Source of the DNA: Sphaerolaimus hirsutus
Taxonomy: Eukaryota; Nematoda; Chromadorea; Monhysterida; Sphaerolaimidae
Assembly (NCBI GenBank): GCA_964036195.1
Contig: OZ038456.1
Span: forward strand, 24,157,792 to 24,221,791
Reading direction: 5' to 3'
Length of the DNA stretch: 64,000 nt
The position numbers and the translations under genes were made by a program. The notes beneath the pieces were generated by a model that did not search any database, was not told the DNA's origin, and was given only the letters and a program-made list of their open reading frames with translations. Of the stretch, positions 30,472 through 55,232 are shown piece after piece (positions within the stretch are counted from its first letter, which is position 1; each line of letters begins with the position of its first letter).

Positions 30472-31699
30472 TGGCGCAGCGAGCAGGGTGATTGCATGAC
30501 ATTGTGCTATCACCAAGCCGGAACGGACATTGTGTGGCAGTTGGCAGAACTTCAAAAGTCCTGCTGAACATCAATTGGCCTTGGCTGAGCGTTGGCTGTT
30601 GATTTGCAGACAGCATTGTGCCAGAGTCACGGCACTCCTGTCTACATCTTGGGAGCGGTTCTACGCTCACGCGCGGAGGACACTGGAGTTCTGACAAGTC
30701 TGTCAGGATTTCAGGCAGCTTTCACCAGTGTTCTGGCAAGGTGCTAGACGCTGGGCGGCACCGGCATTTGACAAGGAGTCATTGTCGGACGGTGGTCAAA
30801 CTTTCGCTGGACGCTCCTGGACATCTGGACTCCAGTGACCGCTCGCACGTCCTTCCTATGCCAAGGGAGGGTGACCTGACGGAGACAGGATCGCCACAGA
30901 GCCACGCTAGTCAAAGGGCTGTTTTTTGGGCATTCGCGGAGGTCCCTCGCTCCACTGGGTAAGAGTGGACTCATACCTCGGAAGTGCAAAAGTAGGGGTA
31001 TCAGTGTACAAAGGGCTGTAGCTGACAGAGGGCTGTAGCTGACAGAGAGTGGATTTGAAAACCAAGTATTAGGATACTTGGTAGCATGTAGGGGCTTTGC
31101 GGAGCTCCCATCAAATATACACGCTGTGCCTGCTCGGTACCATCAGATCAGACAGCACAAAAGTGCCAGAATACTGCATTGCACAGGCGCAATTGCAGAG
31201 CAGTGTACAGAAACACTGCCCAGAATCGGAAAGTGCACCAGAGTGCACAGGAACGTGTCACAGGCGACACGGCAAGCGCAGCACTGCGCACAGCGGCACA
31301 GGAGCCGCTCAGGAAAGCAAGTGGCCGGCGTGGTCACAAGGCACACAGGCGTGCCAGAAAGAGCGCCAGAGCGCTCAGAAAGAGTGTGTACGGACCCTCC
31401 TTGGGCGCACACTGCTGGGCAAATAAATTGTTTATTGTCCAGGTGGATTTGACCAGTGTGTTGAAGTCAACGCGTGTAAACAATCACGTCAGGGGCTTTA
31501 GGAACACACCTGGTGCCAGTGCAGTAAAGGTCAACGCGTGAGAACACGTCAGGGGCCTGTAGGACTGCATTGGTATTGTGCGTGGCACAACAAATCCGTG
31601 GTGCACAGAGCACCACACAGAAAGACGCAGAGAAGCGTCCCAAGCGTCACAAGCGACGCACTATAAAGAGAAACAGTGAAGGAAAATTCATCAGCGAAA

Positions 31700-34600
31700 A
31701 TGGTTTCGCCAACAGGTCACATCAGAAAGACCCTGGGGCCAGCAAAGCACAGGGTGGAAAGTAGATTGGCAAGAGAATTTGCCAAGTATGACCTGGAGCT
31801 ATTTGCGGAAGCATCAAAGGAAGATAAGAGAACAGAGATGAGAAGAGTGATTGCAACTATCAAACAGGAGGGTGCAAAATTGGAAAGTGCAATGACTGCA
31901 GTGAGAACTCAATTTGACGCATGGAGGGACATCGTCAAGGACATTGATGAACCCGACCAGTTGGAACAAGAACAGAAGATATACCAAGACTCATATGAGG
32001 AGTATGCAAACATGTCAGACTTGGTGACACAGAAAATTGCAGCCATGAATGTATACATCGAAGAGTTGCAAGACATGATCCAGCAACAGAGCGGAAATAC
32101 CATGTATGAAGTCAATACAGCATTCATACAGCAGATGGCTGCCCAGATGGCTCTGACAGCTCAGGGAGCTGCTCCGGGGGCCAGTTCAACCAATGTAACC
32201 ACAGCAAAGAGCGTCAAATTACAGAAACTGGAAGTGGAACAGTTTACTGGGGAAATTGTCAAATTTAGATCATGGTGGCAAATGTTCGAATCCCACATTC
32301 ACAATCGGACAGATTTGGAGGACATTTCCAAGTTTTCATACTTGAGGAGCTTGCTGAAAGGCTCAGCATTTGGCATGATCAGTGGATTGAGTGTGACCGC
32401 AGAGAATTATGCACCCGCAATTGCAATGCTCAAAAAGAGATATGACCAGCCAGTTGTGGTCAGAAACACGCTGATGAGTAATATCATGAAGCTGCGACAG
32501 GCCAGGAATACCTGTCAGGATATGAGAATTTTGTTTGATGCAATTGAAAGGCTGCTCCAGCAGTTGGAGTCACTGGGTGAATCAGTGGAACATCCAATGC
32601 TGTTGAGCCAGCTACAACAGAAAGTGCCACCCGAGGTTCTCAGAGAAATCCAGAAGGAACAGGGAACTGAGGAAGCCTTGACGGTGGAAAATTTCAGAAA
32701 GCTGTTTGGCAAGCAGCTAGCGCTCAGTGAGGCTGTACAGCACGCACAGCAAACTGAGGCACCAGTTCAGCAATCGCGCCAAGGGTTTGGGAATAATCCC
32801 CGCGCACAGCAATTCAATAATCGGTTTCAAGGCAATGGGAACCGATTCAGAGGGCCAGAGAACCCAAGGACCAGCACAGGGAGCATGTCTGTGATCCAGA
32901 ATGGACAGAGTGCACCACAGGCTGGATTCATGAATCCTGGGAGGCCGTGTGTGTTCTGCAATGACACACAGCAGTTACACTTTAATGATAAGTGTCCAAA
33001 GTTCAAAACTGCCAGAGAAAGGAGAGTGATTTTGTCAAAGGCAGAGCGATGCCTGAGATGCCTGCAGAAAGGGCATTACATGAATCAATGTCAATTTACG
33101 AGAAATTGTTTCTATTGCAAGTCCAATAGGCACCACACTGCGGTGTGCCCAGAGAAATTTGGTGACAATGGCAATGGAAACGCTGGACGGCAAATTCCAG
33201 CGTTCAGAGCAAATGGTCAACAGAATGGCCAGCAATCAGCAAACAATGGCAGAAAGTCTGTGCCGACGGCCGGTCGACCAGCACAGAGCCAACAGAGAAA
33301 AGCCACAGTGAATTGTGTCACTGTGGAAGAAGCTGGACCAGAAATGGTAGAGACAGAAACCATATCCAGCACAGTGGTTACAGAACCAAATACAAAGCAA
33401 CAAAATACGTCAGTGAACCTGTCAGTAAACAGGAATATGTCAATGTTGATGACAGCCAGAACCGTGATTGAGGCTTCAGAAATGGATACAGAGATGGAGC
33501 CTGAACAGCCACCACTACAGATTCAAGCGTTCCTGGACACAGGATCCCAGGGAACGTACATGTCAGAGAAAGTGGCCAAGAAACTCAATTTGAAGAGTAC
33601 AGGTGAACACCACATCCAGGTGTACACATTCGGAAATGAAAAGCCGCACTATAAAGTAGTACAGCAAGTGGAATTCAGAATGCGGCTCAGAAATGGCCAG
33701 AAAGTGGAAATGGTGGCAGATGTGGTCCCGACGTTGACCACAGAACAAGTCAAAGTGCCTGTATCAGAACAGGACGAAAAGTACCTGCAGAAGTACTTCC
33801 CGGATGAGAGTTACTTTGCAGACAGAATTCCCAAGGAAAAGGGGACAGAGTGCAAGTTCAAGCCAGACATTATAGTGGGCTTGAATTATTTCTGGGACTT
33901 GATGTCCAGAAACACCAGCACCACCAAACTTCCGTCAGGATTGTATGTCATTCCATCAGAATTGGGATTGCTGATGGGAGGTGGGCAGCTGATGAGCAAC
34001 AGAAATCAATGGACCACGGATGGCGCATATCCGGTGGTGGTTAATACAATTGTGCATCAAATTCAGAGAGAAAAGTGGTACGAGGAAGCACCGTTGTCAA
34101 TTGCTCCTGTACCAAATGTCAAGGATATGGATAGACTGGATACCATTGGCATAATGGACCAGCCAGACCTCGTCGAGGATGATGAGGCCATCAAGCAATT
34201 CAATGAGGGTGTACAGAGAAATCCAGATGGACGGTACTCTGTAAAGTTCATGTACAAACCAAATTTGCATGAACTCCCAGATAACAAAGCAATGGCGTTC
34301 AAAAGGTTCAGATACCTCACCAATAGGCTCAAGAGAGACCCAGAATTACTGGAGAAAATTCAGACAATCATGAAAACGCAAGAGGAGCAAGGAGTGATTG
34401 AGAAGGTTCAAGAGGATATTATGGATGGCAGAAAGTTCCATATATTGCCTCATCAACCAGTGATAACGCCAGAGAAAACTACCACAAAGGTCAGAGAGGT
34501 ATATGATGCCTCAGCAAAACCGCCAGGCATGCCAAGCTTGAATGAATGCATGTATCGCGGTCCAGTGATACTACCACAGCTGGTAGGGATGCTGATGCGA

Positions 34601-37600
34601 TTCCGGTTGCATGGAATCGCCCTGGTTGCAGACATAGAGAAAGCATTTCTGCAGATTAGTCTGCAGGACAGTGACAGAGATGTGACAAGATTTCTGTGGT
34701 ACAAAGATCCCACGAAACCATCTATGGAGGACAATATTCAGATTTACAGATTTGCCAGAGTACCATTTGGTATAATCTGCAGCCCAGCGCTGCTGGCGCT
34801 GACAGTCAGATACCATCTGAATCAAGCTGGCACAGAAAATGCAAAATTGATCGATGAAAATCTGTATGTGGATAATTTGATCCTCAGTGTAGATACAGAG
34901 CAGAAAGCAATCGAATTGTACCAGGAATCCAAAGTGCTGTTCACAGAGGCACAGATGAATCTGAGAGAATGGAACAGCAACAATAAGAGTTTTACTTGGC
35001 AATTGGCAGAGTCAGATGTAGCCAAGGAAATTGTCACAACAGTCCTAGGAATGAAATGGGACACAGAGAGCGACCAGATGTGGCTGAAAACGCCAAAAAC
35101 AGTTCAGCAATCACAATTATCAGAAACTGACCAGAAAATCAAACTTCCCACGAAAAGGACAGTTGCAAAGGTGACTGCGGGATGTTTTGATCCAATGGGA
35201 CTTGTCAGTCCTGTCCTACTGCCAGCAAAGAGATTTTTGCAGACGTTATGGCATTCAGGACCAAGTGCCAAAGAATGGGACACACCCCTGTCTGAGGAAC
35301 AGACAGCAATTTGGCAGCAATTAGAGACAGAATTGCTCAAAGTTGGACAGATCAAGTTCAATAGAAATTTGAGTTATCAGAGTGGTGCAGATGCACAACT
35401 GCACATTTTCGTCGATGCCTCAGCAATGGCATACAGCGCAGCGGCATACATATGCCAGAAAACAGAAAATGACAGCGGCACGTCAAGCCTGCTGTACTCC
35501 AGATTGAGACTCGCTCCAAAGAAACCAGAAGTGACAATTCCACGGCTGGAATTGTTAGCAATGTTGATCGGCAGCAGAATGTCAAAGTTTATTCACAAAG
35601 AGCTCAAGGACGTCAAATTCAGTCAAACAGTTGTATGGTCAGATTCAACCTGTTGTCTGAAGTGGCTGACAACAGCGAAGCCACTGGCATGTTTTGTCAA
35701 GAACAGATTGGATGAAATCAGGAAAATTCAGAGTGAGACAGAGAACATGCACATCAGACACATCGCAGGACTGGAGAACCCAGCTGACATGGCCACAAGA
35801 GGCATGAATATGTCAGAGTTGGAAGGCAGTAACCTGTGGTGGAAGGGGCCAGAATGGCTAATGACTGGAGAGTGGCCAGAGCCGAAAGTGGAGCCAGTTA
35901 CGCCAGAAGTAATGGCAGAAATCAAGAAAGAAGAACTCAAGTTCCCAAAAGCCAGTCCAATTTACCTGGGCGCCACACAGCAAGTGGCCAGTGACCCAGA
36001 TGTCAGCAATGTGCAAATTTATGAAAGCAGGCAAAGCAACCCATTGGGAATTGAGGTTCAGAGATTTTCATCACTGACAAAATTACTGGATGCAACAGTA
36101 TACGTGATGAGATTTGTGCGACAGATGCACAAAAAGCGCAGCAAAAATGACAGTCAGAATGGATTGTCAGAAATCATGAAAAGTATCTGTGGTACAATAA
36201 AACCACAGGGAATTATCAGTATTGAAGAGAGAGAGATTGCGTTGAAATATTGGATCAAAGTGACGCAACAGAATCATTACAAAGGAGTGGCAGAGATTCT
36301 GGCAACAGGCCACAGCAAAGGCAGCCATAATGGCAAGAAAACAGCTGCAGACCAGCAGTTGATCAAATGGCTCAATATGCAAATGCATCAGGATGGAATC
36401 CTGAAGTGCCACGGCAGAATGGAGCATACTGACCCACAGGAGGTCACAGTGCCACTCATACTGTTGCCAGCAATGGCTACAGTGACTCAGCTGATCGTCA
36501 GAGACCAGCATGAGAAGTTGATGCACGCAGGAGTGCAACACACATTGGCAGCGATTAGACAAAAGTACTGGATTACACAGGGCAGACGGGTGATCTACAA
36601 TGTGACCAGAACCTGCCCAACCTGTAAGAAATTGGGAGCGAAGCCGTACCAGCTTCCACCAATGCCGGATTTACCAGAAACCAGAATTCAGAGAGCTAGA
36701 CCGTTCCAGTACACGGGCTTGGATTATTTGGGACCAGTTTGGTACAAAGTGGACAAAGATCACAGGAAAATGTGGATCTGTTTGTTCACATGTATGGTGA
36801 CACGTGCAGTTCACCTGGAAAGTGTGCTGGACATGACAGCACAGGAATTCCTGAATGCAGTCAGGAGATTCATCGCCAGGCGCGGAAAGCCTGAGGCAGT
36901 GATTTCAGACAATGCAACGCAATTCAAATTAACAGAGAAAGTGCTCAGCTCAAGCACTGACAAGGCCATTAATACTGGGAAAGAATGGTCAGAGATGGTC
37001 AAAAGTGGAGCAGTACAGACTTACTGCTCACAGCAACAAATCCAGTGGAACATGACTACTCCTATGGCACCATGGCAGGGAGGAGTCTATGAGAGAATGG
37101 TGGGCATCACCAAGAAACATTTCAAGGCAGCTGTGGGGCACAGAATGTTAACCCTACAAGAATTGTTGACACTTCTGCCAGAAGTTGAGGCAGTGATCAA
37201 CAGCAGGCCAATCTCTTACATCTATGGTGATGTAAAAAGTCTCAGAGTGCTGACGCCAAAGGACTTCCTGACAGGGGAAGGTCAGATTGGAGCACCACAG
37301 TTTGACGCAGACAAAGATGGAGAATTTGTGCCCAGAATGGATAACGCAGCGAAACTGCAGAAATATTGGGAGACAACCCAGCAAACTTTGGATAAGTTCT
37401 GGGACTTGTGGCATCAAGAGTATATCCCGAGCTTGAGGGAAAGAACTCAGGTGACGCACAAACATGGCAGATTGACAGCGACGCAAGAACCCAAAGTGAA
37501 TGAAGTTGTGCTGATTTATGAAGAGAACATGCCCAGAGGTGCATGGAGGATGGGTCGCATCGAGCAGTTAGAATCCAGCAAAGATGGACAGATTCGCTCA

Positions 37601-39370
37601 GCGAAAGTCAGAACTGCCAACAGAAATGTGGTCAGCAGACCACTCAATCAATTGTATCCGCTGGAAATCAATTCAAAGACAATGGATATCCCAGAGACAG
37701 CAGTGACAGTCAAAGTGGATTTACTGGACCCAGCAATTGTCCAGAAACATGTCAGAAATCAGAGCTCGAACAGAGACTCTGTACCAAACCCTGCTCAGAG
37801 GAACTCAGCATTAGATAGAGTCCTGAGGAGTGCAACAGGGAAAACCACAGCAACCACCAGCAGTCTAGTGATTGGAATGCTGTGCATGGTGTTGATGCTG
37901 ACAGGCATGTCAGAGTCAGCAACGCTGAGAGAAGCCGGCAAGGCTTACAGCGAAGTATTTTCTAGAACATACGTTCTAGAAACCTCGACAGTAAGGCCAC
38001 CATCATTGGCAGCGCATCATGGATTGCCGCCTTTGCCTTCAGAATGGCCACCAAAATCTGTCAGAGAAATGCAGACTTATGAGAGATTCAAGGATGCAAT
38101 CAAAGATCATCCTGTGGAACAGGTGATCAGCTCACAAAGCCAGAAGTATCAAATTTGTACCAGTGGGAGGCATGGACATGCGCTTACAGTTCCTGAAGAA
38201 GTGCAGTGCCATATCCCACCAAGGAATTTTGTCAAGGCAATGAAAGTTACACTTTACGCACAGAGACAGATTCCACAGAAAGAGAAAGCATACAGATGCT
38301 ACATCAGAATCAAAGAAATCATCACACACACCAGTTTCTGGGGAGCGAAAGGCATTACAGGCAATTTTGAGAAATACCAGCAAGTTGGCGTGGTAGCCTG
38401 TAACTATGCAAGAATTCACAAGATGTTCAGAGGAACACCTTTGGTGGAAATGGAGCCCAGAGTGTGGACAACCAATCAAACCTTGAAAGTGGAATATTCA
38501 TGGTGTTGCCATGACAAAGAGAATGTCGTCAGTAACTTCTACATGGAAGAAGGAACCGTGGCTTCACTTGATGGAAAGACTGTAATCAGCGACTTGCAAG
38601 ATTTCAGCCAGTGCAGAGCCATGATGGGACATTGCAGAGACCACAATTATGGAATCACAGTGTGGGATACGGAGAACTTCAAGCATCAATGTGCATATGA
38701 GAGAATTGGCAGATTCAAATCAGAGATATCTGGCCAGACAATTATTGTATCAAAGTTGCAAGCAGCATATTCCCACAGCAACAAAACAAAGAGGCCAATT
38801 GGCTCAGAATGTGTTCCAGGAGACACATACTACACCGATCAAGGAGGTGTATTCATCCAGTTTGACAGAAGAGAAGATGTGCCTGTGGAATGGGCAATGC
38901 CAGGAAAGATAGTGGAGGCAAGAGAGTCGACAATCAGTGGAACATTGTATGCCAGATTGGACGACAGAAACTCCAAGTTTCAGTTCCTGCAACATGTAGT
39001 CAGAGAGATGACTCAGGCACAATTTGCGATTGTATGGCATCAGCTATGTCAACTTCGCAAGAACCAGCTGGACATGTTGACTCAGCTTTTCCGCATCGAT
39101 CCAACACTGGGGATTCGAGCCATGCTGGGAAGACAGGATGTTCATGCAGAATGGGCTGGAGAAGCAATTATGTTTTGGGAATGCAAGGAAGTGCAGCCAT
39201 ACATAGTTTATCAGACAGGAAAAGTGGGAGAGACATCATTACAAGTACACACCAATGAGACTGGACAAAGATGGGCCCTTGTGGTTCAAGAGCCCAGGCA
39301 GCAGAGACTTGGTGGAGAAATCACCAGAAGAGGATTGCAGCCACACCACACCGCACCTGTACAGAAATGA
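31700..39370 (+). CDS. Gag-Pol-Env-like polyprotein of the BEL/Pao element
   Basis: One open frame of about 2556 codons. I choose ATG 31700, because the frame opens earlier only from a GTG. Using residue numbers from the frame opening (31676), an N-terminal coiled, charged Gag region and a DUF1759-like segment (about aa 180-340) come first. CCHC-type knuckles follow around aa 424-492. An aspartic protease with DTGS is at about aa 620. Reverse transcriptase has its catalytic box as YVDN, not YVDD, near aa 1063. RNase H follows near aa 1240. The integrase has an HHCC zinc motif (about aa 1612-1655) and D, D, E residues near aa 1682, 1741 and 1800. Beyond it, a hydrophobic segment near aa 2060 resembles a signal sequence and starts an env-like ectodomain with many cysteines. 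The frame ends at 39370, before any membrane anchor. Polyprotein cleavage sites are not evident. Confidence 0.9.
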   Translation: MVSPTGHIRKTLGPAKHRVESRLAREFAKYDLELFAEASKEDKRTEMRRVIATIKQEGAKLESAMTAVRTQFDAWRDIVKDIDEPDQLEQEQKIYQDSYEEYANMSDLVTQKIAAMNVYIEELQDMIQQQSGNTMYEVNTAFIQQMAAQMALTAQGAAPGASSTNVTTAKSVKLQKLEVEQFTGEIVKFRSWWQMFESHIHNRTDLEDISKFSYLRSLLKGSAFGMISGLSVTAENYAPAIAMLKKRYDQPVVVRNTLMSNIMKLRQARNTCQDMRILFDAIERLLQQLESLGESVEHPMLLSQLQQKVPPEVLREIQKEQGTEEALTVENFRKLFGKQLALSEAVQHAQQTEAPVQQSRQGFGNNPRAQQFNNRFQGNGNRFRGPENPRTSTGSMSVIQNGQSAPQAGFMNPGRPCVFCNDTQQLHFNDKCPKFKTARERRVILSKAERCLRCLQKGHYMNQCQFTRNCFYCKSNRHHTAVCPEKFGDNGNGNAGRQIPAFRANGQQNGQQSANNGRKSVPTAGRPAQSQQRKATVNCVTVEEAGPEMVETETISSTVVTEPNTKQQNTSVNLSVNRNMSMLMTARTVIEASEMDTEMEPEQPPLQIQAFLDTGSQGTYMSEKVAKKLNLKSTGEHHIQVYTFGNEKPHYKVVQQVEFRMRLRNGQKVEMVADVVPTLTTEQVKVPVSEQDEKYLQKYFPDESYFADRIPKEKGTECKFKPDIIVGLNYFWDLMSRNTSTTKLPSGLYVIPSELGLLMGGGQLMSNRNQWTTDGAYPVVVNTIVHQIQREKWYEEAPLSIAPVPNVKDMDRLDTIGIMDQPDLVEDDEAIKQFNEGVQRNPDGRYSVKFMYKPNLHELPDNKAMAFKRFRYLTNRLKRDPELLEKIQTIMKTQEEQGVIEKVQEDIMDGRKFHILPHQPVITPEKTTTKVREVYDASAKPPGMPSLNECMYRGPVILPQLVGMLMRFRLHGIALVADIEKAFLQISLQDSDRDVTRFLWYKDPTKPSMEDNIQIYRFARVPFGIICSPALLALTVRYHLNQAGTENAKLIDENLYVDNLILSVDTEQKAIELYQESKVLFTEAQMNLREWNSNNKSFTWQLAESDVAKEIVTTVLGMKWDTESDQMWLKTPKTVQQSQLSETDQKIKLPTKRTVAKVTAGCFDPMGLVSPVLLPAKRFLQTLWHSGPSAKEWDTPLSEEQTAIWQQLETELLKVGQIKFNRNLSYQSGADAQLHIFVDASAMAYSAAAYICQKTENDSGTSSLLYSRLRLAPKKPEVTIPRLELLAMLIGSRMSKFIHKELKDVKFSQTVVWSDSTCCLKWLTTAKPLACFVKNRLDEIRKIQSETENMHIRHIAGLENPADMATRGMNMSELEGSNLWWKGPEWLMTGEWPEPKVEPVTPEVMAEIKKEELKFPKASPIYLGATQQVASDPDVSNVQIYESRQSNPLGIEVQRFSSLTKLLDATVYVMRFVRQMHKKRSKNDSQNGLSEIMKSICGTIKPQGIISIEEREIALKYWIKVTQQNHYKGVAEILATGHSKGSHNGKKTAADQQLIKWLNMQMHQDGILKCHGRMEHTDPQEVTVPLILLPAMATVTQLIVRDQHEKLMHAGVQHTLAAIRQKYWITQGRRVIYNVTRTCPTCKKLGAKPYQLPPMPDLPETRIQRARPFQYTGLDYLGPVWYKVDKDHRKMWICLFTCMVTRAVHLESVLDMTAQEFLNAVRRFIARRGKPEAVISDNATQFKLTEKVLSSSTDKAINTGKEWSEMVKSGAVQTYCSQQQIQWNMTTPMAPWQGGVYERMVGITKKHFKAAVGHRMLTLQELLTLLPEVEAVINSRPISYIYGDVKSLRVLTPKDFLTGEGQIGAPQFDADKDGEFVPRMDNAAKLQKYWETTQQTLDKFWDLWHQEYIPSLRERTQVTHKHGRLTATQEPKVNEVVLIYEENMPRGAWRMGRIEQLESSKDGQIRSAKVRTANRNVVSRPLNQLYPLEINSKTMDIPETAVTVKVDLLDPAIVQKHVRNQSSNRDSVPNPAQRNSALDRVLRSATGKTTATTSSLVIGMLCMVLMLTGMSESATLREAGKAYSEVFSRTYVLETSTVRPPSLAAHHGLPPLPSEWPPKSVREMQTYERFKDAIKDHPVEQVISSQSQKYQICTSGRHGHALTVPEEVQCHIPPRNFVKAMKVTLYAQRQIPQKEKAYRCYIRIKEIITHTSFWGAKGITGNFEKYQQVGVVACNYARIHKMFRGTPLVEMEPRVWTTNQTLKVEYSWCCHDKENVVSNFYMEEGTVASLDGKTVISDLQDFSQCRAMMGHCRDHNYGITVWDTENFKHQCAYERIGRFKSEISGQTIIVSKLQAAYSHSNKTKRPIGSECVPGDTYYTDQGGVFIQFDRREDVPVEWAMPGKIVEARESTISGTLYARLDDRNSKFQFLQHVVREMTQAQFAIVWHQLCQLRKNQLDMLTQLFRIDPTLGIRAMLGRQDVHAEWAGEAIMFWECKEVQPYIVYQTGKVGETSLQVHTNETGQRWALVVQEPRQQRLGGEITRRGLQPHHTAPVQK

Positions 39371-40403
39371 ACATGGACAATGGAAGTCCGCACATGGAAT
39401 GGTGCACGTCACAGAGACGCCAATTGAAATGACATGGAAAGGACAGTGGCAGGCCTTCACGTTTGATGCGCCTCACCTGTTCACCAACATTGTCAACAGA
39501 GCGACCAATTTCATGGATGTCAGAGGCCAGATTCAGAGACTACAGAATTTGGAGCATGTGCAGAACCAGTTGATCGATTACACAGCAGATATGTCATTGG
39601 ATCCCAGAGTGATCAGAAATTCAATAGAAGGCATTGGAGCTGGAATTGGACAAACAGCAGCAGGAATCGGCAAAGCATATGGTCATTATATATCTGGAGT
39701 ATCAAAAGGGTACACCAACTTTATGGGAGGAATGCTGAAAGGACCCTTTCAAGTGATCATCAACACAATCGCAATGCTGCTGGGGATCACAATCCTGATA
39801 GCCGGAATTGTAGCTGCAGGATACCTGTGGTACAATTGGAGGATTGCCACAGGGAAACCAGTGATTCCACCGTGTGTATACACATGCATATGGAAATGCA
39901 TAGTGTGTCCATTCAAATGCATATGGCTATGCTTCAGAGCCATCAGATACACTATCAAGAAATCAACTCAGAAAGAGACCAATTATCCACAAAGAAAAGT
40001 GCGCAAGACAGAGTTGAGACCAGCAATCAAGAGGAGAGCCAGATCCAACTCAACACAGTCCATCAGATTTGCCAGGAGAGCAGAAACAGAGGACAGAATG
40101 GCAAAGTCACTATCAGCATACGTTCAACCAGATGAAAGTTCAGCTGATGAGGGACAAGTCAGAGCCAGGAACAGAGACAGTGTTCACATGCCTGATATCC
40201 ACAAATTCACCACACGCGAACGCGCAGGAAGCGACACGGGCAACTACCTGCTTCATCATCAGGCTAGGTCGGCGTTGGCATCACCAACAACCGGACCTGC
40301 AACTTCACGCACACCCACGACTTCGCGCACGACCACGTTCACCACCGAGGCGACTGTGGAAATGCCACTCATCACTTTGGCGCCCACCACCACCAGCATG
40401 TGA
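39255..40403 (+). CDS. C-terminal part of the env-like region, shifted frame
   Basis: 382 codons from an ATG at 39255, overlapping the end of the polyprotein frame by 116 bp in the +1 frame. It carries a long hydrophobic membrane segment at about 39750-39840, then a cysteine-rich juxtamembrane stretch and a basic, Ser/Thr-rich tail. The membrane anchor thus lies in a different frame from the ectodomain. Either a single indel has broken the env-like gene in this copy, or expression uses frameshifting or splicing. I do not attempt to join the parts. Confidence 0.75.
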   Translation: MRLDKDGPLWFKSPGSRDLVEKSPEEDCSHTTPHLYRNEHGQWKSAHGMVHVTETPIEMTWKGQWQAFTFDAPHLFTNIVNRATNFMDVRGQIQRLQNLEHVQNQLIDYTADMSLDPRVIRNSIEGIGAGIGQTAAGIGKAYGHYISGVSKGYTNFMGGMLKGPFQVIINTIAMLLGITILIAGIVAAGYLWYNWRIATGKPVIPPCVYTCIWKCIVCPFKCIWLCFRAIRYTIKKSTQKETNYPQRKVRKTELRPAIKRRARSNSTQSIRFARRAETEDRMAKSLSAYVQPDESSADEGQVRARNRDSVHMPDIHKFTTRERAGSDTGNYLLHHQARSALASPTTGPATSRTPTTSRTTTFTTEATVEMPLITLAPTTTSM

Positions 40404-45826: not shown

Positions 45827-48800
45827 ATGGATACAACAATTGAAAATGGCCTCGCTTTTAATGATATCTACACTAACATTGGCGGTTATGGAAACTACCA
45901 AATTTCATGCATTATTATAATTCAGCTGTTGAACATTTGTCACGCCGCTTCATTTACGGGAAGCTATTTTTCGCTGGGCAAAATTGAACCAGATGTAAAA
46001 TGTTTAGATGATAATGAATTTTGGGATGGCAATGGAACATTCATTGGAGATCTAAATAAATTTCGGAATGAAACCGATTTTCAAGAGGAAGACGAGGTAA
46101 GAGTTTGCGCCAATAAAATGCACTTACCTACTCGATGACTGACACTCTGCACGCGCAATAACGGCGCCACACATGAGGGTGCACTAATACGTACATCTGC
46201 CCGGTACGCACATCTGCCCGTTACGCACATTTGTCCGTTATGCCCGTTGGCCCGTTTTTTCACTTGACACTTTTTCAAGTGATTTTCAGATATGAGTGAA
46301 GTGAAAAAAGTTGAAGCGCAATGACATTAGTGAACTTTTTTCACTTCACTCATAGTTGAACATCACTTGAAAATGTGGCAAGTGAAAAAAACGGGCAAAT
46401 GTGCGTAAAGGGCAGATGTGCGTATACTCCGGTTACTTTACACCTTGCACGCGTGGTTCCCGCTGGAAGTGTGCCAACGATGGTTAACGCGTGCGAGTTT
46501 CATAAAAAGATAAAAAAATTGATTGTTGTTATAACGTTATTCATTAACATATTCATATCGATGAATTTTTTAAATCTTTTTACGGAAATCGCATGATTTA
46601 ATAATCATTGGCACGCTTCCAACACGAGACAAAAATCAGTGCGAGGGCAGAGTATCATGTACGCCGAGTATATTAGGCATGCCCCGCCACACATCCTAGT
46701 TTTCATGGTTCCAATTTGAAAACTAAAACGAAATTCTTTTTCTGCAATACTTAACTTCAAATTCTTTCAAAACATACATTCAAAGGTGAGTACAGCTTTT
46801 TGTTTCAAAGGAAACATCACCAAATGGTCAAACCAAATATCAAACACCCAATAAAATCAATACATCGAAACATTCATCACAGCTGTCCCCCACCTGCACA
46901 ATTCTGACCTACTGCAAAAACATCTCTACCACAAGCATATACTATTCCCAATATGAGGAATTTGGCTGGGCCTGTTTACCAGGTGCCAGTCCCAGACCCT
47001 GTAAAATTGCCTGTAAAATGTCAAATGTGATGCAAAGTGTCAAAGGTAATGTAAAATGCCTTGCAAAATGGCAAATGTATGTTTGCCATTCTGCAGGGAA
47101 GTTTACATGACTTTTTACACTTTGCATGACATTTAACATTTTACAGGGAATTACAGGGTATGGCACTGCCCCCTGGCCACATCACCAGCACAGTTCTCAG
47201 CATAAACCCAGCATTCAGCATTGTCAGCAATGTGTTCTGGGGCTATGCAGCTGACTATGTTGGCAGAAAGTTGTCAATGTGCATTGGCATTACAGGTTTG
47301 GATTTTTCATGAGTTTGTCAGGAGCCACTCCCAGACCCTGTAAAATGTCAAATGGCATGAAAAGTGTACAAAAGTCATGTAAAATGTCCGCTAAAATGTC
47401 AAATGACATGTGAAAAATAAAATATATTGACATGTTACAGGTAATTTTAAATGAATTTTAATTCTATGCATTTTACAAGGTCTGTGGGTGACAAGTGAGA
47501 AGAAGTATTAAGTATTTACCTCATAATTAGAGTTTAAGCCATAAATCAAGTCATGAATAAACTTCTGAATGACAAGGTTTTTCAGTTGTTGATTTACTTG
47601 TCATTTACAAGTTTTCTTCTCACTTGTCCCTTTGCAGAATTTGCACCTGAAGTAACCTGGTATAACTTTACTTATTGGCTCATTGATAGTTCTATCACAC
47701 AGGCGCTTTTGCATTTTCTGTGGGCACAGCACTCTCTACCAGCACTGAAATGTGCGGGGTGGCCAAAATAGTTGTGTAGATTGTTCAGAGTGAATAATCA
47801 CAATGATTTTTGATAACTTTGTAACTTTTGATTACCTGCCCTTTGTCTCTTTTTTACATGATAAACACTTTCCCACACAAGTTTGGCACCCATTTTTGAA
47901 TCAATATCGGATGCAACATCTCCAGCTATGGAGGGGGGATAAATAACTCTGTGGGTATATAGTTGTTACCGCCAATTCTGCAGTCTGCACCAATGGCGCA
48001 GTAACTCGCTCAGGGTGTGTTGCCATGTATGCAACAATTTTGTGGCTTTTTCAGTGTAAAAAACAAGTTCTGCACCCACTTGATTTCTTGCACTGTGGGC
48101 ACTGTATCTTGAGTTCTGGGAGGGGTAGAAAGCTGAAATTTTGGGGAAATGTTGCCAGCACCCCTCACACACTATGCACGAGCAGGCGGGCACCAGAAGT
48201 GCAAGACTTTTTATTAATGACTTCTTTAGTACTGCCGTACTCAATCAAATCTTGTCATCCCCTCATTCACTCAAATAAAGTCAAGTGGGTAGTGAACTTT
48301 TGGGATACCAAATTTTTTCCCACATATATGCCAGCCCTCCCTGCAGTGAGTGCGTCTCCCCCCATTGATGTGGGACAGGGGGGTTATGACTATATACCCA
48401 TCAAGTTCGAATCATATACCCATCAAAACGAGAAAAATGGAGAAAACGTTCGGTGCTGAACTTGAGTGGGAAGGTGTTTACCATGCAAAAAATCAAGATA
48501 AAACAAAATATACTCTGTACACAAGCAATCCATTGTGCAACAATTTCGAACACCCTGCTGTGTATTTCTGCTTTGTCCTGGGCAGCCAGCTATTCATAGT
48601 TGGCAACCCAATCACTGGTCTGTTGCAAGAGACTGTACCAAACAAATGGAGATTGTGGCAGGGATTTGCCCTACATTGGGGACCTGCGATGGTGGTGAGT
48701 GAAGGAATGTCTGCTTTTTATTAGAAGCAGTGGTTTTGAATTGATCATAATGTCAACTCAAAGTCTACTTTTGGTAGGAAGCAAGGGTTTTGATCATAAT

Positions 48801-51800
48801 GTCAACTCAAATGCATCCAATGATTCATGTGTTTTGGAAAAATCAAAGTGTGTCTGGGCTTTTGTCCAGTTCTAAGCTGTGCAATTTCTGTCCAGTGAAA
48901 GTTCTCAGTGAAAGTTCAGTGCCAGATTTCTGGCCAGTCTGCATTGATTTCATAAATATCTAGCCACATTTCATTAGTTTAACATTACTTCTACTGCTTA
49001 CTGCACCTTAACCACATTGTAATTTTTTTGGTTCACCCAACATGAAATTATACTGTTACAAATTTTGTAGGGTGCACCCCATGCATTAATGACAATCAAA
49101 ATTTCAGGTATGTGGCTTTTTAGCAGGCTGGCTGAAAAATTGGAGATATTACATACTCGTTGCAAATTCACTTGCACTGCCAATAATTGTTTTGACTATA
49201 TTTGTTGCAATTGAGAGCCCCAGATATTTATGTCAGAGAAAACAGTTTGTTAAAGCTGCAAAGTCTATCAATTGGATTGCTAAGTGATTGATTTAAATTT
49301 TGTGCTCAGAAAAACATACTCTTAAATAAGTTTTTTTTCCACCCAGGATGAATAGATCATCAATGAGGTATACCGCAGAAGACATGGCATCCATTGATTT
49401 AGGTGCTAAAAAGAAAGCAAAAGCTGAGAATCTCAATTTTCTACACTTGTTTGCTGCACCAAGACTGGCATTTTATTCATGTACACTGGCTCTGGTGAGG
49501 ATTTTTGCATATTGTGAAAAGTTTCAGTTATTGTAATGAATCCTATTCTTGCAGACAGCAATTTCAGTGAACACAATACTCTTTGTGATTATGATGAATA
49601 TTCACTCTCTAGCAGGGTCTCCATTTGTAAACATTTCACTAATGGGTCTGTCTAGAATATGGACACCCCCATTTGTGGTTTTACTTGAAAGAAGGCTGAA
49701 ATGGTTTGGAAGAAGAAATATGCTTATTATATCTCTAGGTACATAAATTTGACTGTATTATTTATATTTTAGAAATTTGAATGGCTCAAACAACAAAATA
49801 ATTTGCCCATAGGTTTTGTAAGCCTGTGTTTTGGTGGTATGATGCTGACATATGTCATTGGAAAGTGGGACGATTGGCATGCAGCGGCTACATTTTTTGC
49901 CATAAGTGGATATGCCATCACATTTGGTCTGCACAAGGTCACTTAGTGTGCACACAAGCTCAGTGAGTAATTGATTTACCTACACCTTGAAAATTTTTGT
50001 GGGGCCAAATTTTCATCATACTCCGCTGAATGAAGTACACTCTCAGTTTACCTAATTACTACAATTATCCTTTATTACCCAATGTGTGCCAATGTGGAAT
50101 GTGTGCTGTGCATTCCATCACATCACTTTCATTTATAACCAAAGCATTACACCCATAACAAAATTATTTTGACCAGTAACTATAACTAGAATTTCCATTG
50201 TTCAAGGTGGACAGTTCATAACTGAGATTTGACATAAATAGCTGGTAAATCAATTTCTCACTGAATGTGCATGCACACACAGATCCTTCAAAAGTGACAA
50301 AATAAAATTGTCCCCAACCAAATGCAGGCATAGTCTATGCTGCATACAAACAAAGTGTGGTAGAAATATACCCAACTTCAATGAGAGGCATAGCCTTAAG
50401 CACTTTCTCAATTTGCGCAATGGCTGGCACTGTGGCAGGGGCACAGCTGACCTACTTCAGCAAGTATTGGTTCCCTCTGCCATATGCTGGTAAGTTACTG
50501 GTTCCTTTGAAATGTATCATTTTTATTGGAGGCATCTAACATCACACCAAATGCCAGTGTGAAGACACTTCACAATGCTTCACAATGCATCACACAAACA
50601 AGATTACCAAGCCTCCCCTACACAGGTTCAGCACTGCTGTGCCTCACAGCAGCCCTGGTTGGCTGGATAGCCCTGCCAGAAACTCGAGACCTGCCGCTTT
50701 TTGACACCCTAAGAGCATTGAAGGCTGCAGCTGGTTCTGGTGTCACTCTCAAACCCTGTAAATTGCTCTGTAAAATGTCAAATGACATGCAGGGTGTCTA
50801 AAGTAATGTAAAATGCCTGGGAAATGGCAAATTCCATGCTCTGTGTAAAAAGTCATGTAAAATGCCCTGGATAATGTCAAATATGTAAATATTTGGCATT
50901 TTACAGGCCATTTTGTCATGTCAGAAATTTCAGAAATGGCAATGTATGTTTGCTATTCCCCAGGGCATTATATTACTTGAGATACCTTACACAACATTCC
51001 ACATTCTCCAATCCATTTACATGGTCTGTGAGTGTCCCCAGGTGGCTCCAGACACAATAGCAGCAATATAGCTGCAGCTAGTGATGGAATGGCGCCATGG
51101 CGCTGGCGCCATTTGAGGGCGCCAAAGGGCGCCGCGCCATGGCGCCATTGGCGCTTGGCGCCCTTTTTCTGTGGCGCCCCTGGCGCCTGGCGCCCACTTT
51201 CTGAAAGGCGCCATGGCGCCCTTGGCGCTTGGCGCCCTTTTTCTGTGGCGCCCTTGGCGCCTGGCGCCCTGCCCTAAAGGGGCGCCAAACTGGCGCCAGC
51301 ATGGTTTCAAGGTGACCGTCAGTAGATAATCGAAAATCGCCATTAAAATGGATGAAGGGTTAAGAGTGGGTGCAATTTTTTGCGTCCATCGGTTCAACAG
51401 ACGCATCTGACTGATCAGAAGGTGAGAATGATGAACCGTCGAACTTGCAAACACATAATCAATGGATTCAAATTGTCATATTACCGTTTTTGTCCATTTC
51501 CAGAAAACATTTGTGAGCAGGAAGCAATAAAACCTAATTTGTGTTATATGAACTGAATAATTTTTTTTGTCAAATGACAATTTTCATCGTGTTTGAATTG
51601 AATGTAACGTGGGGGTATGATGTTATGCTAAATGTTTTTGTCTCACTTTTGTTAATTACATCCTGGAGAAAGTGAATAAACACATAAATGTGTGCTCGAA
51701 ATTTCTAGAATAATGTTTTTAGAACACTCAGGGTACTGTACACACTTATTTTGCTTGGCGCCCCTGGCGCCTGGCGCCCTATTTTTTAAATGGCGCCATG

Positions 51801-54800
51801 GCGCCCTTGGCGCTTGGCGCCCTCTTTCTGTGGCGCCATTGGCGCCTGGCGCCCACATACCGAATGGCGCCATGGCGCCCTTGGCGCCTGGCGCCCTTTT
51901 CCCGTGGCGCCCTTGGCGCTTGGCGCCCACATTCCGAATGGCGCCATGGCGCCATTGGCGCCTGGCGCCCTTTTCTCTGGCGCTTTTCCATCACTAGCTG
52001 CAGCTAGCGTTGGGAAGAGAAGGAGCACTAGCGGTGGAGCCACGGCCGCCACTGTTCTTGGGAAGAGACGCAGAAGTGTGATGCATTCAACTTTGGATGA
52101 TGCACTTATTGTGCTCGGTGGGCAGGAGAGTGCAGCTCAGCAGGTTGGCTGGGGAGTCTACCGTATTTGCTCGAAATATCCCCAGGGGGTTTGTTTTCAG
52201 AGTGAGAATTTTGAGGGGGGGGGGTATTTCGAGGGGTGGTTAATCGAGGGGGGTTATTATTTCAACATAAATTTTCTGAACTCTCAGTACTAATAACGTA
52301 TGCAGACGTAGAAAAATTCAACAAAAACAACCATGTATAAGTATGTAGGTAGATGGTATAAACCATGTTCTAACATAACACAATCATTGCTTTTAACCTG
52401 TGTTATAAACTGGTGGAAAATATAATTGAGAAAATCACTTTATTGTATTTTACAAATCCCACATGCAGCCTGTTAGGCTCTCATCTTGTGTGAGGGTGCC
52501 CCCAAGTATTTACTATATATACCCTAGGGGGCACCCCCCTCAGGCCACCCTTGCTGCAGAAAAAAAATTTTTTCCACATTTTTTCCGGAAAATATAAATG
52601 AGAATTCATACAAATTTTTGTTCCTGAAGAAATTTATATTTTTAATATCTTTTTTTCTGGACATTTGAGACCAAAAAGTTTTTTTAACATTGGTAGATTG
52701 TAAGTATGTTTAACTTTTCTACCCCCTCAGAACCCCCAGAAGCCCCACACAATGATGGCGTTGTTGATCAAATCCAAAAAATATTTTTGAGAAAAACATA
52801 GGTTTGAAAAGGTGGACAATCCACTATCCCAAGCTATACATGGAGCACATGGGGGCCAGAATTGGCTCGCGCAGTGTCAGGGGCAACATATGGCTGCTCC
52901 TGGGCCCCATTTTCGCACTTATGTATTTTTTTATAGCAAATGATAAAAACAGCCCTGTGTAAAGAGGGCACTCGCGTGACAGCGTGTCCAGCACCTGCAG
53001 TGTCGTGATGCAAATTACAAAATACTTGTGCCCATTCAATGTGGGCACTAATTATCTGATAAAAACCTGTAGGGGCCAATGGGCAATGTGCCATGTATCT
53101 AGTGTGAGTGGGCCAAACAAATAAAGAGGTCATGTCGAGAAAATCAAAAATCACAGGTTTTTAATCACAACCACAATTTAGGTAATAACAAAGTTTAAAA
53201 TCATTGTTGACATGGCTCCGTGGCACATGTCTGTATATCTGGGGTAATTTTTGTGTGGGGGAGTGGGCAGGGGGTCAAAATATACCCCCTAATTACCAGG
53301 GGGTCAAAAGATGGCTTTGGGCAAGCCACAAGGACTTTTAATTTTTTGAAAAAGCACCAACACAAGTGTATTCATCACTTGTGTTGTAACCACACCAAAA
53401 AATGGCTGCACACTTCACCACAACTATATTTTGTGTGGTTTTTTGAAAATTCTCATTTATATTTTCCGGGAAAAAATTGGCAAAAAATCTTCATCAATCT
53501 GTAGCAGCAGAACAGGGGGGTGCCATGGGGTGCCACTTGGCATATATGTAGGCAAATGTTGTGGGCACCCCCACAACAAATGGCAGCCATATTGGGCAGC
53601 ACATATTCCTGTGAGATTGTTATGAAGAATGAGGTACCTGATTTCTCATTTAAATGTGCCACCAGTTTACATTGCCCAGTTCATAAACCGCAGCTTTTGT
53701 CATTGACATTCTCTTTACTCTCAATTGGGGGGGGGGGGGTATTTTGAGGGGGTTTATTAATTCATAGTGCCCATTTTGAGGGGGTATTTCGAGGGGGGTG
53801 TTTCGAGTGGGGGGGGGGTATTTTGAGGTAATACGGTATTTGATTTGTAAAATTTGTTTGAAAGGGTCATTTAATTTTTCACTCTGATAAAATAATACCC
53901 AGTAAATGCTTCTACTGAAATATAGTGTACAATGTGTCAGACAGCCCATTTAATCGGAAAAATATATCAATGTCTTCTTTAGAAAAATTTTTGAGGTGTC
54001 CAATTCTAAAAGTCTACAAGTCCAAAATATGAAAATTTAGAGTTAAGCCCGGAAACGTCATCTGGGGCTACTTCTGCACATTTTTCATCATTTTCCATAC
54101 ATTTTTTGACCTCACATGCCCATATGACAAAGTGCCAAATTTGACATTTTTTGGGAAAAATGCAAAAAGTTTGGGCAAGAAGTTGACAAGTCCAGCTGGT
54201 TTTGGGCTAAAAGTCGACAAGTCCATCCTCCGCATCCTTTTTTATGCAATTTATGGGAAAAAATGCAAGAACTGTGATAAGTCCACTATGGAAAGCGATT
54301 TCTGAAAGTCGAAAAGTCCATAAATTTCCCATAAGGAAGCCTCAAGGTCACCGGGAACAAAAATGTTCTCGCGTGCAAGAAGTCGACAAGTCCATTTCCC
54401 TCCCCAAAACGGTTTTGCTCTGACCGAATGGAATTTTATGGACACCCCATTTTTCACATATACGTCGAGAGCAGGGGCTGAAAATTTGACACTTTATTGT
54501 CAACATATGGAACTAAATGGAAAGCATGAGAGAGCCAAATTGGACACGCACCACGGGCCTGGAATAGGGTCTGAAACTTAAAATGCGATTTACTCAAAAT
54601 CGCATTTTGTGGACTTGTCGACTTTTAGAATTAGACGCCTCATTTATCTTGCACCATGCACAAGAGTAAACTCGATAAGTGGCCTTCACACTAGTTGACA
54701 AATGTGTGTCAACTCAGATTTCATTTTCCCGAATCATACAGCAGTCTCAAAATGCACATGTGGCAATGTTGAAAATATATATTATGGCAAGTGCATTGGA

Positions 54801-55028
54801 ATATCGCTCTGTGACACGTGAAACCGATATCTGAGTTGACACACGTGTGTCAACTACTGTGTGGGCTGCCATCGAAGTATTCACTATCAACTAATTTTAT
54901 TAAAGGTAAATAATGGCAATGATGACGATGATGATGAAGTTTTTGTCAATATCAATCAACGACAACGCAGCCAAACAGATCAAATCTCACAACAAGAAAA
55001 TGAACCTTTGAAAAATGACAAGATTTAA
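45827..55028 (+). CDS. SLC22-like organic ion transporter (major facilitator superfamily)
   Basis: Exons: 45827-46096, 46883-46982, about 47176-47320, about 47638-47703, 48600-48694, 49108-49283, 49347-49494, 49555-49738, 49813-49926, 50328-50489, 50626-50739, 51042-51080, 51998-52143 and 54906-55028. The start FNDIYTNIGGYGNYQI is typical of SLC22 N-termini. An extracellular loop with N-glycosylation sites follows, then the family A motif GYAADYVGRK after TM2, ESPRYL after TM6, a basic central loop, ERRLKWFGRR, the signature EIYPTSMRG before TM11 and LPETRDLPLFDT after TM12. The family moves organic anions, cations or zwitterions across the plasma membrane; substrate cannot be told. The tail is Gly/Arg/Ser-rich, then acidic, ending PLKNDKI. 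Exons 5-14 agree in phase. Problems: exon 3 has an apparent one-base slip near 47296, the exon 4/5 junction lacks a canonical donor, and the exon 2/3 intron lacks AG at the expected place. Several introns are MITEs. AATAAA is at 55500. Confidence 0.85.
46187..46433. mobile_element. Palindromic MITE with CGCACATCTGCCCG words
   Basis: The arms read ACATCTGCCCGGTACGCACA on the left and GCAGATGTGCGTAT on the right, with inner CACTTGACACTTTTTCAAGTG-like palindromes near 46260 and 46365. It lies in transporter intron 1, directly before a 250-bp MITE at 46423. Confidence 0.6.
46423..46672 (+). mobile_element. 250-bp TATACTCCGG MITE, copy 1
   Basis: It begins TATACTCCGGTTACTTTACA and ends GTACGCCGAGTATA. 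Near-identical copies in the same orientation lie at 55233-55482 and 57518-57768. The termini share TATACTC(C/G)G as short inverted ends. It has no coding potential. It lies in transporter intron 1. Confidence 0.75.
46983..47175 (+). mobile_element. Introner-like MITE between transporter exons 2 and 3
   Basis: It starts GTGCCAGTCCCAGACCCTGT after CAG and ends GGTATGGCACTGCCCC followed by CTG. Removing it exactly joins CCA G to GC CAC and gives the spacing between the exon 2 Cys and GYAAD expected for SLC22. The right flank is CTG, not CAG, so no AG stands at the exact border. The next in-frame acceptor is CACAG at about 47194, which would drop six residues. Confidence 0.6.
47321..47637 (+). 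mobile_element. Composite MITE intron between transporter exons 3 and 4
   Basis: 47321-47487 belongs to the introner family (GAGCCACTCCCAGACCCTGT ... ACAAGGTCTGTGGGTG), here with GA in place of the usual GT. It runs into a second inverted element (GACAAGTGAGAAGAAG ... CTTCTCACTTGTCCC), ending at the acceptor TTTGCAG|AATTTGCACC. The available GT donor is upstream at 47296. Confidence 0.5.
50740..51041 (+). mobile_element. Introner-like MITE as transporter intron 11
   Basis: It starts GTGTCACTCTCAAACCCTGT right after GGTTCTG and ends GGTCTGTGAGTGTCCCCAG right before GTGGCTCC. GT-AG removal joins codons in phase (G|GT) and continues the Gly/Arg/Ser-rich C-terminal tail. The inner arms carry TGTAAAATGTCAAATGAC words, as in the copy at 3505-3749. 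Confidence 0.7.
51079..51996 (+). mobile_element. GGCGCC-word hAT-like element acting as transporter intron 12
   Basis: TAGTGATGGAATGGCGCC and TGGCGCTTTTCCATCACTA ends lie between exact GCTGCAGC copies (51071-51078 and 51997-52004). A GT-AG intron from 51081 to 51997 uses GT at element positions 3-4 and AG made from the last A of the element plus the first G of the target duplication. The frame stays open, with three additional codons compared with the empty site. Confidence 0.8.
52159..53838. mobile_element. TACCGTATTTGCTCG element in transporter intron 13
   Basis: The left end TACCGTATTTGCTCGAAATA and right end TATTTTGAGGTAATACGGTA have TA borders; G-run words with GTATTTCGAG lie in both arms. 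The interior (about 52300-53700) is unique, with no convincing gene on either strand. Read through without splicing, this element would give the transporter a short chance tail ending near 52293. Confidence 0.6.
53839..54905. other. Rest of transporter intron 13
   Basis: 53990-54640 repeats a motif near AGTCGACAAGTCCA several times on both strands, probably another decayed word-array element. 54681-54870 is a short GTTGAC MITE (CACACTAGTTGACA ... GTCAACTACTGTGTGGGC). No exon is seen before the acceptor at 54905. Confidence 0.45.
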
Positions 55029-55232
55029 AAATGTGAAGGATTGATCCAAATCGTGATGCAGAAATATGTATGCCACACTAGTCCTATTACATGGAAATTT
55101 CGTCAGATATTTTTGATGTTGCTCACATGTAGTTCTGTGATAAAAATACCAATACAGCTGTAAAAATGCACGCCATGAAATTGTTGTCTGTTTATGAGTT
55201 GGGTAAAGAATTTTTTACTGCTGTGATTTTGT

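Follow-up and report, generated by a model that had tools for sequence, protein, structure and literature searches.

A hAT-like element in a probable tail exon of an SLC22-like transporter gene of Sphaerolaimus hirsutus, and the putative splice pair at its ends

Transposons acting as introns and the insertion in the SLC22-like gene

The origin of new introns is a long-standing question, and hAT elements of maize are among the closest described parallels to the insertion treated here. Judging by their titles, which stand among the references of PMC3260210, Dennis 1988 is said to deal with a Ds1 insertion in Adh1-Fm335, Wessler 1991 with the splicing of Ds1 from exons, and Giroux 1994 with a de novo intron created through Ds; introners of Aureococcus are reportedly the subject of Huff et al. 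2016. Ds1 begins with TAG and has three donors, 12, 22 or 33 bp from its terminus, and two acceptors that lie no more than 24 nt away from the opposite end (PMC5432752). A second parallel is provided by introners, which Gozashti et al. 2022 found in 175 of 3325 genomes; that paper presents DNA transposons as a well-supported source of new introns and describes Aureococcus introners that add 12 bp, made up of 4 element bases and 8 duplication bases (PMC9860276). The stretch analysed here, 64,000 nucleotides of Sphaerolaimus hirsutus contig OZ038456.1 (hereafter the window), carries a 918-bp hAT-like element with an exact 8-bp target-site duplication, located in what is probably a coding exon of an SLC22-like transporter gene.

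The insertion resembles Ds and Ds1 in being a hAT element with an 8-bp duplication at an exon site, although splicing as an intron is reported by the titles for maize and is a prediction here. Unlike in Ds1, the candidate donor is located at element positions 3-4 and the candidate acceptor straddles the border between element and duplication. With the Aureococcus introners, as described in PMC9860276, it shares descent from a DNA transposon, an 8-bp duplication and, if spliced as predicted, the addition of whole codons. It differs from them in that the predicted addition is 9 bp, composed of 2 from the element and 7 from the duplication, and in that the other copies sampled could not be called as exonic. 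The element's 918 bp compare with reported median lengths of 30-654 for introner families.

The explanation favoured here, to which a probability of roughly 0.6 is given, is that of a hAT-like insertion in a tail exon with an incidental splice pair, mixed transcripts and persistence through its position. Cut-and-paste transposition would have placed a non-autonomous element into exon 12 of the gene as modelled, creating the 8-bp duplication. A minimal GT...TAG pair would have arisen incidentally, because the ends of the element begin with TAGTG and the duplication begins with G; if used, this pair would lengthen the message by nine bases without introducing a stop. The insertion would then persist mainly because exon 12 lies in the tail, past the transport domain, and not because the family has evolved as introns.

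The element and the candidate splice pair at its junctions

The exact duplication is GCTGCAGC, and the ends of the element, TAGTGATGGAATGGCGCC and TAGTGATGGAAAAGCGCC, are identical over their first 11 bases, with the terminal inverted repeat (TIR) TAGTGATGGAA present at both. At both ends this repeat fits the hAT consensus start (T/C)A(A/G)NG. Within the element, the hexamer GGCGCC occurs 36 times, divided between an array close to the left end and another close to the right end. Parts of these arrays are open in several frames in six-frame translations of 51079-51996 because the repeats lack stop codons, and no transposase-sized frame was seen by eye in the six-frame translations of the core and of the element. 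A scan of the window for hAT-like ends flanked by 8-bp duplications with at most one mismatch returned 11 elements, 10 of them with exact duplications, as compared to a single hit in total over 30 shuffles; seven of the 11 start with TAGGG and have no GT at positions 3-4. The sequence TAGTGATGG occurs five times in the 64-kb window, against 0.40 expected. Given its 918-bp length, its lack of a transposase-sized frame and its high copy number (see below), the element is a non-autonomous hAT-like miniature inverted-repeat transposable element (MITE). Like hAT MITEs in general, it has a short TIR, an 8-bp duplication, no transposase gene and thousands of copies, and unlike them it carries long GGCGCC-rich arrays close to both ends.

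An exact duplication around a hAT-like MITE, with a junction that would splice to a gain of three codons, had been proposed in a preliminary description of this DNA, and these parts of it are borne out. The TIR supplies GT at its third and fourth positions; the right end and the G that opens the duplication form TAG, an acceptor whose A is the final letter of the element and whose G already belongs to the duplication. Splicing at 51080/51081...51997/51998 (here and below, a slash within a site marks the splice border) retains two TIR bases and seven duplication bases, which is nine nucleotides more than the empty site and introduces no stop, and the spliced form reads ..NSSNIAAATAASVGKRR.. where the empty site reads ..NSSNIAAASVGKRR... 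A second candidate acceptor, at 52003, would also be in frame and add 3 nt, and exon 11 joined straight to 51998 would keep the frame because 51042-51080 comprises 39 nt. Use of this GT...AG pair in the cell, with its gain of three codons, is putative. The preliminary description had extended this to any insertion at a site starting with G, which is nearly right as arithmetic: in a simulation of the insertion at each of the 1795 positions of the host gene's own coding sequence, 408 positions started with G, and a stop was gained in 53 of these (13%), every one of them in the same phase. With acceptors within the duplication included, a frame-neutral, stop-free option existed at 485 of the 1795 positions (27%).

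The strength of the splice sites was judged from donor scores based on an approximate frequency table, ranked over the 586 GTs located between 45.0 and 55.5 kb. The proposed donor, CTA/GTGATG, scores -2.1 and ranks 171st. The internal donor AAG/GTGAGA at 51422 scores 6.6, the best of any GT within 51042-52143, and that at 51312 scores 3.0; both are located beyond the in-frame stop of a transcript that retains the element. With so weak a donor, the view that the element is actually spliced out finds no support, and mixed transcripts are therefore to be expected. The mixture would consist of forms spliced at the TIR, forms in which the left part of the exon is skipped to the junction acceptor, forms that skip the whole exon, and forms that end inside the element, where the AATAAA hexamers make premature polyadenylation possible. 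The features of the locus are listed in Table 1.

Table 1. Features of the insertion and its host gene, in window coordinates
Feature	Positions	Strand	Basis
Exons 1-11 of SLC22-like host gene, hand-made model	45827..50733	+	phase-consistent joining, Pfam, solved chains
Exon 12 left part, if spliced: 37 nt of host (including first duplication copy) plus element TA, 39 nt	51042..51080	+	
Target-site duplication GCTGCAGC, left copy	51071..51078	+	exact repeat
Non-autonomous hAT-like element (MITE), 918 bp	51079..51996	.	ends, duplication, copy number
Left TIR TAGTGATGGAA; GT at element positions 3-4 (51081-51082)	51079..51089	+	
Putative intron GTGATGG...CACTAG, 917 nt	51081..51997	+	sequence and frame arithmetic
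Competing internal donor AAG/GTGACC	51312..51312	+	
Competing intron-like stretch, donor AAG/GTGAGA to acceptor TTTCCAG/A	51422..51503	+	
Two AATAAA hexamers (51526, 51675) within putative intron	51526..51680	+	
Right TIR, TTCCATCACTA on + strand	51986..51996	-	
Target-site duplication GCTGCAGC, right copy; second candidate acceptor CAG/C ends at 52003	51997..52004	+	
Exon 12 right part, if spliced	51998..52143	+	
Final coding exon, joined to 52143 in phase 0; tail ..VNNGNDDDDDEVFVNINQ..KNDKI stop	54906..55030	+	

The host gene and the fate of its transcripts

Exons joined by hand under phase constraints yield a protein of 609 aa; exons 3, 4, 5, 6 and 9 are the least certain splice choices in this model. 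The protein matches Sugar_tr (4.2e-17) and MFS_1 (6.3e-14) in Pfam, with the transporter match ending at residue 497, and the closest solved chains are members of SLC22, the best being organic cation/carnitine transporter 2 (E 5.9e-13, residues 200-514). The protein search, in which 8000 candidates were scored, gave no homologue at E <= 0.001. From these matches, the host looks like an MFS gene of the SLC22/organic-cation-transporter kind. Without the element, the host frame is open for 176 nt from the acceptor at 51042 to the donor at 52143, and the phases of exon 12, phase 1 in and phase 0 out, match both neighbouring exons. The element would be positioned at about residue 520, directly past the matched transporter part, in what the model predicts to be the cytoplasmic tail. 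As exon 12 would code for a tail beyond most of this matched part, even an unspliced insertion could be tolerated. A transcript retaining the element meets an in-frame stop in the left array and would give a 585-residue product, and one skipping exon 12 reaches a stop past residue 509; both forms keep nearly all of the transport part, since the Pfam match ends at 497 and the solved-chain match at 514.

These shortened products also suit the best of the alternatives, a partial loss-of-function allele in which the transporter is shortened, or in which a polymorphic, mildly harmful insertion is segregating. This reading is tentative, but it has several routes available to it: read-through to the left-array stop, polyadenylation at the hexamers inside the element, and exon skipping, with the Pfam part up to residue 497 left intact in either product. 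It is opposed by the absence of any sign of decay in the gene model, where the exon frame is open on both sides of the element and the downstream exon is open as well.

A second alternative, judged unlikely, is that the element acts as a new intron that is removed from most transcripts, from TA/GT to TAG/C, leaving three added codons, and that it has persisted for this reason. The correctly placed GT and AG, the gain of 9 nt with no stop, the fitting phases of the neighbouring exons and a pyrimidine-rich acceptor all agree with such a role, and the Aureococcus introners that add 12 bp are a precedent (PMC9860276); but the donor is weak and a far stronger one lies inside the element, two AATAAA hexamers fall within the putative intron, and loss of the tail would be tolerable too. 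The favoured explanation of an incidental splice pair in a tail exon nevertheless has to be set against several observations that weigh against it. Frame neutrality and a stop-free spliced form fit a tolerated intron equally well, and the acceptor side is good, with pyrimidines at 11 of 15 positions. The model's own donors E9 (-3.4) and E11 (-5.5) score below the element's -2.1, with E6 (-1.6) slightly above it; weak donors may be normal in this genome, or the gene model may be wrong there. In addition, exon 12 was drawn in the hand-made model solely from its open frame and matching phases, and this open frame has no Pfam match.

The last two points bear on whether the insertion lies in a coding exon at all, as the preliminary description had it. 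An exonic position is probable given the open frame and the fitting phases. The opposite view, that 51042-52143 is not an exon, that its frame is open by chance, and that the element is intronic or lies in the 3' part of the gene, is regarded as more doubtful still than the new intron. The tail is without a homologue (8000 candidates scored) or a Pfam domain, and the 111-codon open frame across the insertion site is not exceptional, given that frames of 102-173 codons also run across seven of the 24 other insertions listed; one copy with such a frame, L020, sits in an intron by eye. Standing against it are the 176 nt open across the empty site, the fit of phase 1 entry and phase 0 exit, and the last exon, which ends in a stop.

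The element family in the genome

The end pattern TAGTGATGGAANNGCGCCA was searched in the 348-Mb assembly (762 contigs), where exact matches number 4470 on the forward and 4594 on the reverse strand, 9064 in all, as compared to none on either strand for the reversed control pattern. At two ends per copy, this suggests about 4500 copies, or one per ~77 kb. No match to the element-end DNA was found in the viral_contigs and genome_contigs collections. In a small sample of 28 loci (L001-L028), all from the initial 5.5 Mb of a single contig, 23 distinct complete copies were flanked by 8-bp duplications, and 22 of these duplications were exact; as the search accepted only pairs differing at no more than one position, this set shows the form of the insertions and not the rate of exact duplication. 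The hAT preference for target sites with T as the second and A as the seventh base is seen in 24 of 46 readings for each base (for A by symmetry of the two readings), and in this family it is a preference, not a rule.

For a consensus, the window copy (51079-51996) and 19 of the 23 sampled copies were taken, and four of these 19 (L001, L020, L022 and L026), which share fewer than five 11-base words with the core of the window copy, were dropped, leaving 16. The window copy diverges from the 16-copy consensus by 15.6%, L025 by 30.9%, and the other 14 by 3.3 to 6.7%; given this divergence, the window copy belongs to a divergent subfamily or is older than most, despite its exact duplication. In the core of the consensus, a strong donor, AAG/GTGAGTG, lies at position 234 and an acceptor, TTTCAG, at position 454; both may be remnants of a transposase gene's initial exons.

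The preliminary description had further proposed that duplications beginning with G would mark copies tolerated in exons, and that the family had evolved intron mimicry. For the first of these, 27 TAGTGATGG copies were compiled, consisting of the 23 sampled, two in the window and two with imperfect right ends from a wider scan. Taking both readings, the first base of the duplication is C in 26, G in 20, A in 8 and T in none of 54; the window copy supplies two of the 20, leaving 18 of 52 without it. G-first duplications are common wherever the element lands, and therefore say nothing about tolerance in exons; with a base rate of 20 of 54, the proposal that they single out exonic copies was rejected as stated. 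The preference for C or G at this base (46 of 54, with T in none) is stronger than in the loose hAT consensus.

For the second, 25 insertions (the 23 sampled and two in the window) were checked for open frames running through their joined flanks, and frames of 102-173 codons were found at L002, L005, L020, L022, L025, L026 and L027. Pfam-A returned no family for L002, L005, L020, L022, L025, L027 or the window site, and for L026 one match below the cut-off, to Hid1 (E 0.0054, 15.5 versus 22.5 bits), in a low-complexity stretch. Three of these seven loci were inspected by eye in sequence. L026 and L027 show no clear exon; L020 looks coding, and there a first exon appears to end at ~1973 and a second to start at ~4062, the element being placed in the intron that separates them. 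The two joined L020 exons had no match in Pfam or PDB, and a tentative naming of this gene as a dolichol kinase is unconfirmed. None of the 23 sampled copies was callable as exonic by eye from open frames and Pfam, which is a soft check, as Pfam also missed the window exon, recognisable from its neighbouring exons alone. Evolved intron mimicry consequently finds no support in this sample. The TAG start of the element is presumably a general hAT feature. With G-first duplications common, no exonic copy callable by this soft check, and seven of the 11 window elements starting with TAGGG, the GT...AG junction is favoured, short of proof, as an incidental property of hAT-like ends rather than one selected for splicing. 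A true introner family, with ends selected for splicing, is very improbable, for although GT stands at positions 3-4 of every TAGTGATGG end, whichever way the element is oriented, and the G is supplied in 20 of 54 readings, no sampled copy besides that in the window could be called exonic by the soft check, the TIR start is presumably common to hAT elements generally, and most elements of the window lack the GT.

Other repeats were observed at these loci. At L020:4883-5075 (G000:C1, ~4729782-4729974) there is a palindromic element bordered on each side by CAG, which resembles a "CAG-flanked" family noted earlier in this DNA and by eye interrupts a coding stretch; the L020 gene thus holds both this palindrome and a TAGTGATGG copy, the latter in an intron by eye. 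Sequence like the palindrome makes up transporter introns 46983-47193 and 50734-51041. Elsewhere in the window, at 12511-14837, three elements are nested: an innermost TAGGGTTGG element at 13653-14356 (duplication TGCCTAAC), within a middle TAGGGATGG element at 13272-14665 (duplication GCGCTGGC), within an outer TAGTGATGG element at 12511-14837 (duplication ATATCAAG/ATATCGAG), an arrangement that gives the relative order of activity of the three families. The region 31667-40400 contains an open frame of 2567 aa followed by one of 398 aa, and is retroelement-like by eye.

That hAT elements can be spliced as introns and that introners can add whole codons are both already known, and the mechanism proposed for this locus would bring features of a known kind together in a new way; no description of a hAT family with a +9-nt rule was found in the open-licence literature searched. 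The present case is one insertion, with putative splicing, in a dispensable-looking tail. It is a long shot that the whole family of ~4500 copies behaves in this manner, its ends together with any G-first duplication forming a frame-neutral +9-nt intron in either orientation, which would make it an introner if spliced. If this were true, the transposase's own end sequence and the length of its duplication would supply the splicing, alongside the CAG-flanked family, and a single rule (a TIR starting with TAG, GT at positions 3-4, a G-first 8-bp duplication and always +9 nt) would be applicable to thousands of copies in one genome.

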